Shown piece after piece: positions 23,619 to 30,521 of a DNA stretch of 64,000 nt. Each line of letters begins with the position of its first letter. Position 1 is the first letter of the stretch. Source of the DNA: Fusicatenibacter saccharivorans (GTDB lineage Bacteria > Bacillota > Clostridia > Lachnospirales > Lachnospiraceae). The stretch lies in contig NZ_JADNOP010000012.1 in assembly GCF_015557635.1 (NCBI RefSeq), positions 62,001 through 126,000 of the forward strand. Reading direction: 5' to 3'. Made by a program: the position numbers and the translations under genes. A model generated the notes under the pieces. That model did no database searches and had not been told where the DNA came from. It saw only the letters and a list, made by a program, of their open reading frames with translations.

Positions 23619-24086
23619 CTACATAATCCAGTTTACGTCGAGGATCAGAAGCTGTGCCTTGTGTGACAGGGCGGTAAGTACACGCAGCTTCGCCTTCATT
23701 CCATTGGAAAATTCCTTGAACTGTTTTCCTTCCGGAAGATGCAGCTTCTGGCACTCTCTGGTGAACCAGCTTTCCTCAAACTTTGGATACATTTTCGCCA
23801 GAATTTTCTCCACTTCCACGATGGTAAACTGTCCGTTAAATCCAGATTCTGCCAGCGAAACGCCGATATTCTGCCGGTCCTCTGCCATAATTTCTGTGAT
23901 CGGTTTTCCAAAGAGTTCGATTATTCCGCCATCTGCTTTTGCAAGGCCGAGCATCAGCCGGATCGCCGTGCTTTTTCCGGCTCCGTTTTTTCCAATCAGT
24001 CCGGTGATTCTTCCCTCCGGAATCTCCATAGAAAGCTCAAAATCAAATCCCGGATACACCTTTCTGACATTCTGCATTTTTATCAT
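23619..24086 (-). pseudogene. ABC transporter ATP-binding protein, truncated by ICE insertion
   Basis: The Walker A motif GLIGKNGAGKSTAIRL and the C-loop FSNGMKAKLRVLTALSH are intact. The protein then reads LLILD and ends as VNWIM, where LLILDEP should give the Walker B glutamate and the rest of the domain (D-loop, switch His). Host sequence therefore stops at about 23636 and the last five codons come from the element. About half of the usual ~280-290 residues is missing, so the ATPase cannot work. It is paired with the upstream GntR gene, as in YtrA/YtrB-type operons. Confidence 0.88.
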
Positions 24087-24787: not shown

Positions 24788-24813
24788 TATGCAAAAAAGG
24801 AGGAACACCATGA
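24760..24813 (+). CDS. Possible 17-codon leader peptide overlapping ureA start
   Basis: ATG at 24760 with AAAGGAG eleven bases upstream reads [17 protein letters not shown] and stops at a TGA overlapping the ureA ATG. It lies across the 3' half of the leader hairpin, so ribosomes on it could affect termination or couple to ureA. It could equally be chance. Confidence 0.25.
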
Positions 24814-25112
24814 GATTAAATCCCAAGGAACAGGAAAAACTGATGCTTCATATGGCCGGTAATCTCGCCAAAGAGCGGAGAGCACGCGGCCTGAAACTGA
24901 ATTACCCGGAAGCACTCGCCTACATCAGTTCCGAGCTTCTGGAACTGGCAAGGGACGGAAAGACCGTTGTGGAGCTGATGCAGCTCGGCACAAAGATTCT
25001 AACCCGCGACGATGTCATGGACGGCGTTGCCGATATGATCGGCGAGGTTCAGGTCGAGGCAACGTTCCCGGATGGAACCAAACTGGTCACTGTACATAAT
25101 CCGATTCAGTAA
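24810..25112 (+). CDS. ureA: Urease gamma subunit
   Basis: 100 residues, the normal UreA length. [20 protein letters not shown], then [20 protein letters not shown] and LVTVHNPI are characteristic. Forms the urease complex with UreB and UreC, hydrolysing urea to ammonia and carbamate in the cytoplasm. The ATG at 24810 has AGGAGG seven bases upstream; an in-frame ATG at 24789 would put extra residues ahead of the family start. First structural gene of the operon; ureB follows after fourteen bases. Confidence 0.97.
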
Positions 25113-25126
25113 GGAGGAGACATCAT

Positions 25127-25486
25127 ATGAAAATCGGTGAAATCATGGCTTCCGATCGCGAGATCACATTAAACGAAGGCAAAAAGACAGTCACTGTCAT
25201 GGTAGCAAATAAGGGCGACCGTCCCGTTCAGGTCGGCTCCCATTTTCATTTCTTTGAGGTCAACCGGTGCCTCTCTTTTGACCGGGAAACGGCGTACGGT
25301 TATCACCTCGATATTCCTTCCGGAACTTCGGTCCGTTTTGAGCCGGGCGAGGAAAAAGAGGTGCAGCTCGTCGAGATGGGCGGCAGAAAACGTGTCTTCG
25401 GTCTGAATGACCTGACCCGCGCACAGGCTACCGCTGACACGAAAGCCGCATCACTGGAAAACGCGAAGTTAAAAGGATTTCTGTAA
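25127..25486 (+). CDS. ureB: Urease beta subunit
   Basis: 119 residues. [17 protein letters not shown] and [16 protein letters not shown] are the UreB signatures, and the C-terminal extension to KLKGFL is slightly longer than minimal forms. A structural subunit of the urease trimer. Good AAGGAGG site. Separated from ureC by fifteen bases. Confidence 0.97.
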
Positions 25487-25501
25487 GGAGGGACAGCAAA
25501 A

Positions 25502-27223
25502 ATGAGTGTAAAAATTTCCGGAAGTAAATATGCCGCTATGTACGGTCCGACCGTCGGCGATAAGGTCCGCCTTGCCGACACCAGCCTTGTGATTGAAGTC
25601 GAAAAAGACTACACCACATACGGCGATGAAGTAAAATTCGGCGGCGGCAAATCCATCCGCGACGGTATGGGACAGTCCGTTAAGACCTGCAGCAGAGACG
25701 GAGACCTTGATCTTGTCATCACAAACGCTCTGATCGTGGATGCTACAGGCATTGTAAAAGCAGACATCGGAATCAAAGACGGAAAAATCGCCGGCATCGG
25801 AAAAGCCGGAAACCCGGATGTCATGGACGGCGTGACTCCTGGCATGACGGTCGGCGCATCGACCGAGGCTCTGGCCGGCGAGGGTATGATCGTTACGGCA
25901 GGCGGCATCGATACTCACATCCACTTTATCAGCCCGCAGCAGATTGACTGCTCCCTCTACAGCGGCGTGACCACGATGATCGGCGGCGGCACCGGCCCGG
26001 CGGACGGCACGAACGCAACGACGTGTACCCCGGGACCGTGGAATCTGCGCATGATGCTGAAAGCCGCAGAGGAATATCCGATGAACCTTGGTTTTCTCGG
26101 CAAGGGCAACTGCTCCGACGAGGCTCCGTTGATTGAGCAGGTCAAAGCCGGTGCGATGGGCCTGAAAATCCACGAGGACTGGGGCGCAACGCCGGCGGTC
26201 ATTAACCACTGCCTCAACGTTGCCGATGAGTTCGATGTCCAGGTTGCCATCCACACCGATACTTTGAACGAAGGCGGATGCGTCGAAGATACGCTTGCGG
26301 CCATCGGCGGAAGAACCATCCATACGTACCACACCGAGGGAGCCGGCGGCGGCCACGCACCGGACATCATCCGCGCTGCTGCTGCACCGAACGTTCTGCC
26401 TTCCTCCACGAATCCGACAATGCCTTACACTGTCAACACACTTGATGAGCATCTTGACATGCTGATGGTATGCCACCACCTCGACAAGCACATCCCGGAG
26501 GACGTTGCGTTCGCGGATTCCCGTATCCGCCCGGAGACGATCGCCGCAGAGGATGTTCTGCACGATATGGGTATTTTCAGTATGATGAGTTCCGACTCCC
26601 AGGCGATGGGCCGTGTCGGTGAGGTCATCACCCGTACGTGGCAGACCGCAAGCAAAATGAAGGATGAGCGCGGCGCTCTGCCGCAGGATGCCGGTCATGA
26701 AAACGATAACTTCCGCGTGAAACGTTATATCGCAAAATATACGATCAACCCGGCCATCACCCACGGTATCTCCGAGTATGTCGGCTCGGTCGAAAAGGGA
26801 AAATTTGCTGATCTCGTGCTCTGGAATCCTGCTTTCTTCGGCTCCAAACCGGATATGATCATCAAAGGCGGTATGATCGTCGCTTCGAAAATGGGAGACG
26901 CCAACGCTTCGATCCCGACGACACAGCCGGTCTGCTATCAGCCGATGTTTGCCGCTCACGGAAAAGCAAAACAGGAGGCATGCCTGACCTTCGTTTCCCA
27001 GGCTGCTTTCGATGCCGGTATCAAAGACGCATACGGACTGGAAAAAACGGTTGTCCCGGTACACGGCTGCCGCAGTATCAGCAAAAAGGATATGGTATGG
27101 AACGACCGCACGCCGGTGCTTACCGTAGATCCGGAGACATATAAGGTCACTGTTGACGGCGAGGAGATCACTTCCAAGCCAGCAGAAAAACTGCCGCTGA
27201 CCCAGCTTTACAGCCTGTTCTAA
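25502..27223 (+). CDS. ureC: Urease alpha (catalytic) subunit
   Basis: 573 residues, full length. Nickel ligands His139 and His141 in GIDTHIHF, the carbamylated lysine Lys222 in GLKIHEDWG, later ligands in HTDTLNEGG and [15 protein letters not shown], and the catalytic flap [14 protein letters not shown] are all present. The enzyme should therefore be competent once nickel is loaded by UreD-F-G-E. G/C-richer at third positions than the neighbouring ICE cargo, which suggests stable host residence or a different source. Confidence 0.98.
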
Positions 27224-27265
27224 ACGGCTCTGCATTCTGTAAAACCATACGAGGAGAATTTTATT

Positions 27266-27772
27266 ATGCTTGGAGTGTGTCTTTTATTTGTAGGAATTGT
27301 ACTGATCAACAACGGCATGTGCACCCTGTACCATGTGGATGGACGCTCGGCCGCTGTAATGAATATCTTTACCGGCGGACTTTCCCTTTTCATCAACTTC
27401 GTGAATCTCGTGCAGGGAAATTATTACGCTGCCGGAACGGGACTGCTGTTCTGCTTCACTTACCTCTTTGTGGCCGTCAATAAATTTTTAAACGCCAGCC
27501 CGATCCCTTTTGCGTGGTTTTCGACCTTTGTTGCCGTCAACGCTGTCATCTTCGGAACGATCGAAGGCTTCATTGGAAGCGCGGCGCTTGACATCACGCC
27601 GGATCTCCGCTGGGCGGGCATCTGGTATCTGTGGGCCATTCTCTGGGGTACTTCTTTTGTGGAGGATATCTGCGGAAAGAAGCTCGAAAAATTTGTGCCG
27701 TGCCTTCAGGTATTTGAGGGCGTTGTCACCGCGTGGATCCCGGGCGTCATGATGCTGCTTCAGATCTGGTAA
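27266..27772 (+). CDS. ureI: AmiS/UreI-family urea channel
   Basis: 168 residues with six or so hydrophobic segments (MLGVCLLFVGIVLINNGMCT at the start). It matches the UreI/AmiS family, which in Helicobacter is a proton-gated urea channel. The position between the urease structural and accessory genes supports urea uptake. Whether it is gated by acid cannot be read from the sequence. Confidence 0.92.
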   Translation: MLGVCLLFVGIVLINNGMCTLYHVDGRSAAVMNIFTGGLSLFINFVNLVQGNYYAAGTGLLFCFTYLFVAVNKFLNASPIPFAWFSTFVAVNAVIFGTIEGFIGSAALDITPDLRWAGIWYLWAILWGTSFVEDICGKKLEKFVPCLQVFEGVVTAWIPGVMMLLQIW

Positions 27773-27796
27773 TTCGGTAAGGAGGAACTTTTTTCA

Positions 27797-28273
27797 ATGG
27801 TTTGCGAACAGATTTTAGGAAAACTTTCGGAATTTGACACTTCCGGAAAAACGATCGAATACGTCGATATCGAATGGCATGAAGCCTTCAAAAAGATTCA
27901 TAAAAAGACGACCGACCACGGAACGGAGCTCGGCATCCGCATGGACGATTCCATTCTCACAAGGGGTCTGTATCAGGGTGATGTGCTCTATGCAGACGAT
28001 AAAAAAATCATCGCCGTCAATACGCCTCCGTGCGAGGTGATCCGCGTTTCCCTTACTCCGGGTCACGAAAAGCAGGCGGCAAAGGTCTGCTACGAGATCG
28101 GCAACCGCCATGCACCGCTGTTCTGGGGCGAAAACGATACTTTTATCACGATTTACAATGAGCCGATGCTTCTGATGCTTCAGAAACTCCACGGCGTTAC
28201 GGCCGAAAAAGAACTGAAAAAGCTCGACTTCGACCAGCGGATTTCCGCATCGATCCACAATCATCATCACTGA
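27797..28273 (+). CDS. ureE: Urease accessory protein UreE (nickel metallochaperone)
   Basis: 158 residues. N-terminal peptide-binding domain with RGLYQGDVLYADDKKI, a ferredoxin-like domain with YEIGNRHAPLFWGEND, where the conserved His should bind nickel, and a short C-terminal histidine tail (HNHHH). UreE hands nickel to UreG for insertion. Good AAGGAGG site. The 90-bp gap before ureF holds a possible hairpin (GAAAAG...CTTTTC around GGGCCGGCCC, about 28294-28318). Confidence 0.94.
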   Translation: MVCEQILGKLSEFDTSGKTIEYVDIEWHEAFKKIHKKTTDHGTELGIRMDDSILTRGLYQGDVLYADDKKIIAVNTPPCEVIRVSLTPGHEKQAAKVCYEIGNRHAPLFWGENDTFITIYNEPMLLMLQKLHGVTAEKELKKLDFDQRISASIHNHHH

Positions 28274-28363
28274 TGCGGTCTGTCCGCACGCAGAAAAGAA
28301 TGGGCCGGCCCCTTTTCGCAGGCAGGCTCATTCGATATCTTATGATTTTTCAGGAGACTTTTT

Positions 28364-29062
28364 ATGTCCGAACTTAATTTTTATCTTCTTCAGATCAACG
28401 ACGCCCTGTTTCCGATCGGCGCGTACTCGCACTCGCAGGGACTCGAGACGTATATTCAGCGTGAAATTGTGCACGATGAGGCGGCGGCAAAGGAATATAT
28501 CCACCACAAAATCCGATGGAATCTTGCCTTCACGGAGCTTCTCGCCGCAAGACTCTCCTATCTTGCTGCCGCATACGGGGATCTGGAACAGCTTCTTTCG
28601 ATTGAAGAAATTCTGGAAGCGTCGCGGATTCCAATGGAACAAAGGGAGGCCGCACGGAAAATGGGGTCCCGTTTTGCAAAGACGATCGAAAAGCTGGAGC
28701 TGCCCGTGACAAAAGAGGAAAACGGGATCTTCCGCCGTTATCTTACTGCCAGGAAAGGGCAGGCGATAAACCACTGCTGTATCTACGGTGTTTTCTGCGC
28801 TGCCATGAACATTCCGCTTGCCGATGCGCTGTCGCATTATCTCTATGCGCAGACTTCCGCGATCGTGACAAACTGCGTCAAAACGATACCGTTAAGCCAG
28901 AGCGCCGGACAGCAGCTTCTCGGCGGATGCTATGCGGAATTTGCCGAGATTTTAAAAGATCTGGAACACCGGAGTGCGGAGGATCTCTGTCTTTCTGCGC
29001 CGGGCTTTGATATCCGCGGGATCCAGCATGAAACACTGTATTCCCGTCTTTATATGTCGTAA
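28364..29062 (+). CDS. ureF: Urease accessory protein UreF
   Basis: 232 residues. FPIGAYSHSQGLETYIQ near the N-terminus and PLADALSHYLYAQTSAIVTN are the UreF signatures. All-helical protein that bridges UreD and the UreG GTPase in the activation complex. Start ATG follows CAGGAG. Complete. Confidence 0.95.
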   Translation: MSELNFYLLQINDALFPIGAYSHSQGLETYIQREIVHDEAAAKEYIHHKIRWNLAFTELLAARLSYLAAAYGDLEQLLSIEEILEASRIPMEQREAARKMGSRFAKTIEKLELPVTKEENGIFRRYLTARKGQAINHCCIYGVFCAAMNIPLADALSHYLYAQTSAIVTNCVKTIPLSQSAGQQLLGGCYAEFAEILKDLEHRSAEDLCLSAPGFDIRGIQHETLYSRLYMS

Positions 29063-29110
29063 TGTGTTTGTTTCGCGCAATCATTATTTTCAGGAAAAGA
29101 GGTATGTGTT

Positions 29111-29719
29111 ATGTCTTACGTAAAAATTGGAGTAGCAGGACCGGTCGGCTCCGGAAAAACGGCACTGATTGAGGCGCTGTCCCGAAAAATGGCAAACGAT
29201 TACAGTATTGGCGTTATCACCAACGATATTTATACAAAGGAGGACGCACAGTTTCTCGCGAAGAACAGCGTCCTTCCGGTGGAACGCATCATCGGCGTGG
29301 AGACCGGCGGCTGCCCGCACACCGCGATCCGCGAGGATGCTTCGATGAACCTCGAGGCCGTCGACGAGATGATGGAGCGGTTCCCGGACATCGAGCTTCT
29401 CTTTATCGAGAGCGGCGGTGACAACCTCTCCGCTACGTTCAGTCCGGAGCTTGTGGACGCCACGATCTTTGTTATCGATGTCGCTGAGGGCGATAAGATT
29501 CCGCGGAAAGGCGGCCCTGGCATTACACGGTCCGATCTTCTCGTCATCAACAAGATTGATCTGGCTCCGTATGTCGGTGCAAGCCTGGAAGTCATGGAAC
29601 ACGATTCGAAAAAAATGCGTGGCGAGCGTCCGTTTCTGTTCACCAACATCCGCGGCGACGTCCATGTGGATGATGTTGTTTCCTGGATCAAAGAAAATGT
29701 GCTCTTAGAAGGAATGTGA
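29111..29719 (+). CDS. ureG: Urease accessory GTPase UreG
   Basis: 202 residues. P-loop [18 protein letters not shown], the metal-binding CPH of [32 protein letters not shown] and the guanine motif [11 protein letters not shown] are intact. It uses GTP to drive nickel delivery to UreC. Its stop codon overlaps the first possible ureD start. Confidence 0.97.
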
Positions 29720-29724
29720 TGCTT

Positions 29725-30521
29725 ATGGAAAACAAATTCGGAAAATTTCCCGCATCACGGCCTGCGCGGCGTTAAAAAACGGAAAGACGATTCTCGAGGA
29801 CCTCTCCTTTACGGCGCCGTACAAGATTATGGCTCCGTTTGAAAAAGAGAACGGCGGAATCCAGATCATGCCTCTCTGTGCCTCCGCGGGTATTATGGAA
29901 GGGGATTCACAGGAATTTTCTTACCATGTAAAAGAGGGGGCGGATCTCGAGGTCCTGTCGCAGTCGTTTGAGAAGATCCACAAAATGGACGAGGGATCGG
30001 CATCCCGCACAATTTCCGTTCAGGTTGATCCGCACGCGGTACTTTACTACTATCCGCAGCCCGTCATTCCGTTTGCACAGTCTTCTTTTACGAGTACAAT
30101 GACGATTCATCTGGCAGACGAGACATCCCGCCTGTTTCTGCTGGAAATCATCTCCTGCGGACGGAATGCGCACGAAGAGCGGTTCCAGTACCGCCGCTTT
30201 GCCTCAAAGGTACAGATTTTCCGCGGTCAAAAGCTGATCTACCGCGACAACACCTGCTATCTGCCCGATCAGATGCCGATGGAAGGGATTGGTATGTACG
30301 AGGGATACACGCATATGGCGAACCTTTTTCTCTCACGGACAGAATACGCGGATACGCTTCTCAATGAAATCCGGGAAATTCTTGACGGCGATCCGGAAAT
30401 CGACGGCGGCGTAACGACGCTCTCCGGCGGTGATCTTGCTGTTCGGATTTTCGGACACCGTGCGCAGAAGCTGCAGCAGACGGCGGAAAAAATCAAAACT
30501 GTGTATGAAAAACTTCTATAA
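29725..30521 (+). pseudogene. ureD: Urease accessory protein UreD, frameshifted near 5' end
   Basis: From ATG 29725 (or 29719) the frame reads MENKFGK and then runs to a stop at 29773. The next frame, entered at GGAAAATTT (29740-29748), continues ISRITACAALKNGKTILED, then LSFTAPYKIMAPFEKENGG and reaches 30521. Adding one A to the run of four joins them into one UreD of normal length (about 268). The ATG at 29829 alone would lose the first ~35 residues. UreD recruits UreF-UreG to apo-urease, so loss matters. It could be a true mutation, slippage during expression, or a sequencing error. Confidence 0.8.

Follow-up and report, generated by a model that had tools for sequence, protein, structure and literature searches.

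In the window (the whole 64,000-nucleotide stretch of DNA analysed here, part of contig C3 of the 3.6-Mb genome, assembled in 52 contigs, of a gut-type bacterium), the ureD gene of an otherwise intact urease operon is displaced by one base at a run of exactly four A residues (29742–29745, plus strand). We lean towards the view that codon 7, within this short A run, has very recently undergone a real one-base frameshift, either fixed in the strain or present in the culture that was sequenced; the weights that we give to a real lesion and to a sequencing or assembly error are the analyst's judgement. UreD (UreH) forms a complex with UreF and UreG, and this complex loads nickel into urease. Initiation at the proper ATG would give a 16-residue peptide followed by a stop, leaving full-length UreD absent or present only in traces; since UreD is needed together with UreF and UreG for nickel loading, the prediction, given a correct base call, is that the strain produces apo-urease and is urease-negative. 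We infer both a correct base call and a loss of activity.

The original ureD start codon (ATG, 29725–29727) is preceded by a Shine-Dalgarno-like AAGGA, identified by direct reading at 29709–29713 on the plus strand. The frame that begins there (29725–29775, plus strand) encodes MENKFGKFPASRPARR and then reaches a stop at 29773–29775. The bulk of UreD is encoded in a different frame, which reads ISRITACAALKNGKTILED; this frame is open from 29709 to 30521 on the plus strand and contains no ATG, GTG or TTG until 29829. The longest ATG-started ORF remaining in the UreD frame (29829–30521, plus strand; 230 aa) has no Shine-Dalgarno-like sequence ahead of it, and ureD has no intact ORF from its canonical start. 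Read through, the frame encodes a full UreD, matching Pfam PF01774 with an E-value of 4.9e-49 over profile positions 3–200 of 201, and UreH (3sf5) with an E-value of 3.2e-42; the match is not due to chance. The frameshift that the original prediction described at 29717–29850 is thus present as described.

We compared the junction with those of related loci, using comparison genomes at one per species. The resulting table has 47 rows, 3 of which are the window's own DNA and lack an in-frame start; all 44 others have an upstream in-frame ATG, GTG or TTG. The tree and distinctness analysis took 43 of these 44 rows, omitting L008 as the second piece of the L004 locus, and yielded 36 distinct relatives, counted as UreD proteins. 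None of the 36 lacks an in-frame start, and relative to them the one-base disruption of the frame is established. The closest urease relatives of the window are Lachnospiraceae, mostly Blautia. The nearest loci, L009–L011 (B. wexlerae, Blautia sp. MSJ-9 and B. caecimuris; UreD 77–78% identical), read MDNKFGKISRIS in a single frame, and all three carry an A run one base longer than that at 29742–29745, bearing out the earlier claim that one A is missing.

The remaining urease genes had been predicted to look intact, and all seven match their Pfam families and align over their full or nearly full length with B. wexlerae (L010). The operon occupies 24789–30521 on the plus strand, in the order ureA-ureB-ureC-ureI-ureE-ureF-ureG-ureD, with ureD located alongside ureABC and ureEFG. 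The three structural genes, all on the plus strand like the rest, are ureA (gamma subunit, 24789–25112; PF00547, E-value 2.2e-47; residues 3–107 94% identical to B. wexlerae), ureB (beta subunit, 25127–25486; PF00699, E-value 2.7e-44; 92% over the full length) and ureC (alpha, catalytic subunit, 25502–27223; PF00449 and PF01979; 95% over the full length). They are followed by ureI, encoding a urea channel of the AmiS/UreI family (27266–27772; PF02293, E-value 1.3e-52; 89% over the full length), and by the accessory genes ureE (nickel-binding protein, 27797–28273; PF02814 and PF05194; 85% over residues 1–153 of 158), ureF (28364–29062; PF01730, E-value 2.2e-37; 78% over the full length) and ureG (GTPase, 29111–29719, with its TGA stop at 29717–29719; PF02492, E-value 5e-43; 95.5% over the full length). 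A 588-aa open frame on the minus strand (25469–27235) lies antisense to all of ureC and is probably a shadow of codon usage. Upstream of the operon, also on the minus strand, an ABC-transporter-type ATPase (23619–24086; read by eye, without a family search) stops just past the motif LLILD, and the other two frames show no continuation down to 23200; this gene is apparently truncated.

A spare copy of ureD that would make the lesion harmless was rejected, as the search of the window's own genome gave only one ureD match; a search for a second ureC likewise gave a single place. Of 397 genomes of the family, 28 have a strong ureC match, and exactly these 28 also have ureD; ureD is thus retained in every genome that retains urease, and a general absence of ureD among urease-positive relatives was rejected. 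PF00449 matches were found in 64 genomes; the 36 genomes outside the 28 have weak matches (best E-value 1.1e-6), which we read as other amidohydrolases. Searches of viral contigs gave no match to the ureD junction and three pattern stretches for UreD, none of them a relative, and searches of plasmids for the urease operon recovered only about 300 bases of ureG in four records (74.5–78.9% identity).

UreC is 93–95% identical to those of the Blautia operons. In the UreD tree, the window protein clusters with Blautia (support 100/97), apart from G002 and G005, the two genomes of the same genus in which a UreD was found (~51% identical). UreF behaves like UreD, with 78–79% identity to two Blautia loci versus 53–54%. 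This grouping of UreD and UreF with Blautia suggests that the operon at 24789–30521 may have been transferred or replaced. Among the relatives, we also observed a second damaged urease operon, in Hominisplanchenecus faecis CLA-AA-H246 (L017:4526–8759), with three deletions that join ureB (1–53) to ureC (17–443), ureC to the end of ureI (120–168), and ureE (1–108) to ureF (84–232); ureA, ureG and ureD are whole. The L004 locus, from G033, has the same junctions over the part that it covers. In G375, a congener of G033, both ureC and ureD lie in long open frames. The deletions in L017 and L004 represent either real erosion or misassembly.

The remainder of ureD appears to be maintained. No stop occurs in the 259 codons read, and over 256 codons aligned with B. 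wexlerae there are 37, 24 and 135 differences at codon positions 1, 2 and 3, respectively, placing 135 of 196 differences at the third position. Against three Blautia loci, ureD has a dN of 0.11–0.15 (dS is saturated, and uncomputable, in two comparisons and 2.05 in the other); for comparison, the intact ureF has a dN of 0.14–0.17. This pattern shows ureD downstream of the shift to be under apparent purifying selection. In relative-rate tests of ureD, changes found in the window alone and in the sister alone numbered 10:12, 11:19, 12:8 and 13:15, with chi-square values of 0.14–2.13 across the four comparisons and no significant excess. For ureF (17:6, chi-square 5.26) and ureA (6:0, chi-square 6.00), the window had an excess above the 3.84 threshold in one of four comparisons, unrepeated in the other three, indicating that the intact genes are, if anything, faster than ureD. 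In the UreD tree, the end branch of the window is 0.18, and from the same fork B. wexlerae lies at a distance of ~0.12 and B. caecimuris at 0.25. Thus, ureD carries one disabling change relative to intact orthologues, with the remainder in frame, as in a single-lesion pseudogene; an old pseudogene was rejected on the absence of further stops and the ureD chi-square values. Since the body of ureD looks constrained, the frameshift is either very recent or a sequencing error.

The second of these possibilities, in which the consensus dropped one base in a short A run whereas in the strain itself ureD is intact and urease works, is a tentative alternative that we regard as less likely than a real lesion. 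A sequencing or assembly error would give the same picture as a real lesion: the urease operon is complete, ureD is otherwise constrained, and only the frame itself shows decay, with no further stop and no rate excess in ureD, all of which counts against a real lesion. The shift is also a one-base difference in run length, which is a common type of error; however, the run here is only 4 or 5 bases, and on most platforms run-length errors tend to affect longer ones. The authors of PMC3711429 anticipate that a lone frameshift with BLASTp confirmation is a sequencing error and not a genuine indel and, where Pfam confirms it too, that it is an error or a pseudogene indel.

As an indirect test, we used a hidden Markov model to scan 370,349 bases, comprising the window and 16 other stretches of the same genome, for frame changes, flagging any that lacked a ribosome-site-like start close to the old stop. 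When single bases were deleted artificially at 101 places in long coding runs, the scan saw 92 of the deletions and flagged 72 (~71%), such that flagging misses about three in ten artificial shifts; an earlier version of the frame filter, which passed just 8 of 32 artificial deletions, was replaced. The scan found 68 frame changes, of which 56 were unflagged; the one-by-one review covered the 12 flagged changes, including that in ureD. Seven of the 11 other flagged changes have a different Pfam family on each side (window 9808 and 7101; C3a 21453 and 18144; C1 31480; C2 106047 and 47961). At two more (C3a 27784 and C1 49026), one side carries a complete or near-complete Pfam domain and the opposite side matches no family. 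The change at C1:1554 opens a near-complete acyltransferase domain, and that at C1:60386 lies in a receiver-domain remnant broken at both ends. This remnant of a response regulator (C1:60200–60720 of the window's genome, G000; ~200–720 of L056) covers positions 26–94 of 111 of the PF00072 profile, with frame breaks at both ends, and is an older pseudogene; real gene decay therefore occurs in this genome. Across 370 kb at ~71% sensitivity, none of the 11 other flagged changes looks convincingly like a one-base shift in a gene that is intact elsewhere. Hence, such shifts are rare and errors of this kind are not common in the assembly, which does not look indel-ridden, and a real ureD mutation is mildly favoured.

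Recoding would restore UreD in a fraction of products, either by a minus-one ribosome slip at the A-run lysine codon or by slippage of RNA polymerase, and we consider this very unlikely. A slip on AAA would enter the UreD frame, the gene beyond the shift appears to be under purifying selection, and in insect endosymbionts slippage has been reported to rescue frameshifted genes that contain A/T runs (PMC3017870). Against this, the shift is common to none of the 36 distinct relatives, and no X XXY YYZ heptamer lies in the right phase, the phase being GGA AAA TTT. The run of four compares with more than seven (A) or eight (T) in known transcriptional slippage (PMC3711429). The downstream RNA folds no better than shuffled sequences (z-scores of +0.29 and +2.13; −0.47 for the whole junction). 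Homologues with the same four-A arrangement, which the original prediction named as a sign of slippage, were looked for and not found (0 of 36). A programmed frameshift gene would have a frame change conserved across relatives, and a stimulatory structure next to a slippery heptamer or a long run; neither feature is seen here. Nor does the tract have the length typical of a phase-variable gene: it is a run of four, and the window contains 721 runs of four and 262 of five (any base). Among the three options that the original prediction had offered, we therefore retain recent loss and sequencing error and regard programmed slippage as unlikely, given that none of the 36 relatives shares the shift, that the run has only four A residues and that the downstream fold is no more stable than those of shuffled sequences.

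It is similarly improbable that the shift is real but tolerated, with low-level minus-one slipping on the four A residues or a weak restart supplying enough UreD; urease would then be throttled by recoding at the nickel-loading step. A shortened working UreD made by restarting at ATG 29829, or by starting at one of two ATT codons of the UreD frame (29736 and 29745), is hardly to be expected. The frame is indeed open, and the entire Pfam UreD match (residues 56–253) is retained in the 230-aa ORF, which starts at residue 41 of the read-through protein, but ATG 29829 has no Shine-Dalgarno-like sequence ahead of it, the product would lose 17 residues with counterparts in the H. pylori UreH alignment (the match starts at residue 24 of the read-through protein, residue 19 of UreH), and the start is farther upstream in all 36 distinct relatives.

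Surveys of gene presence would call this genome urease-positive, since homology detects every structural and accessory gene, and the strain, given a correct base call, is probably urease-negative. In acetogenic Lachnospiraceae, urease channels urea carbon into short-chain fatty acids (PMC12001548), so silent losses of this kind matter for the prediction of function. The presence of urease genes varies between strains in several Blautia species (PMC12001548). The case itself is ordinary, and nothing points to a new mechanism.

The closest operons in sequence are those of Blautia (B. wexlerae and B. caecimuris), in which ureD is in one frame, and functional urease has been published for Blautia isolates (PMC12001548). 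In the openly licensed literature, so far as its text was available, we found no description of a disrupted ureD from Lachnospiraceae. Blochmannia likewise has frameshifts at A/T runs in otherwise conserved genes, possibly corrected by transcriptional slippage (PMC3017870); however, Blochmannia genomes have 27–30% G+C and are rich in runs of at least 9, whereas the run here is of 4 at 48.5% G+C, and ureD is not among the frameshifted genes named in the available part of that paper. Klebsiella pneumoniae with ureC::IS5075 has likewise lost urease through one lesion in the operon, but there the lesion is an insertion sequence in the gene for the catalytic subunit, found in 14.1% of 9,755 genomes (PMC8269217). 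The closest precedent is ureD of Yersinia pestis, where the same gene, with the same kind of lesion, is listed among genes inactivated by indels (PMC9248902), and where loss of urease activity has been linked to transmission by fleas (PMC12654628). The Y. pestis lesion predates the ancestor of modern strains (PMC9248902), whereas that described here is in one genome related to Lachnospiraceae. The ureD lesion in the window is one more case of this known kind.
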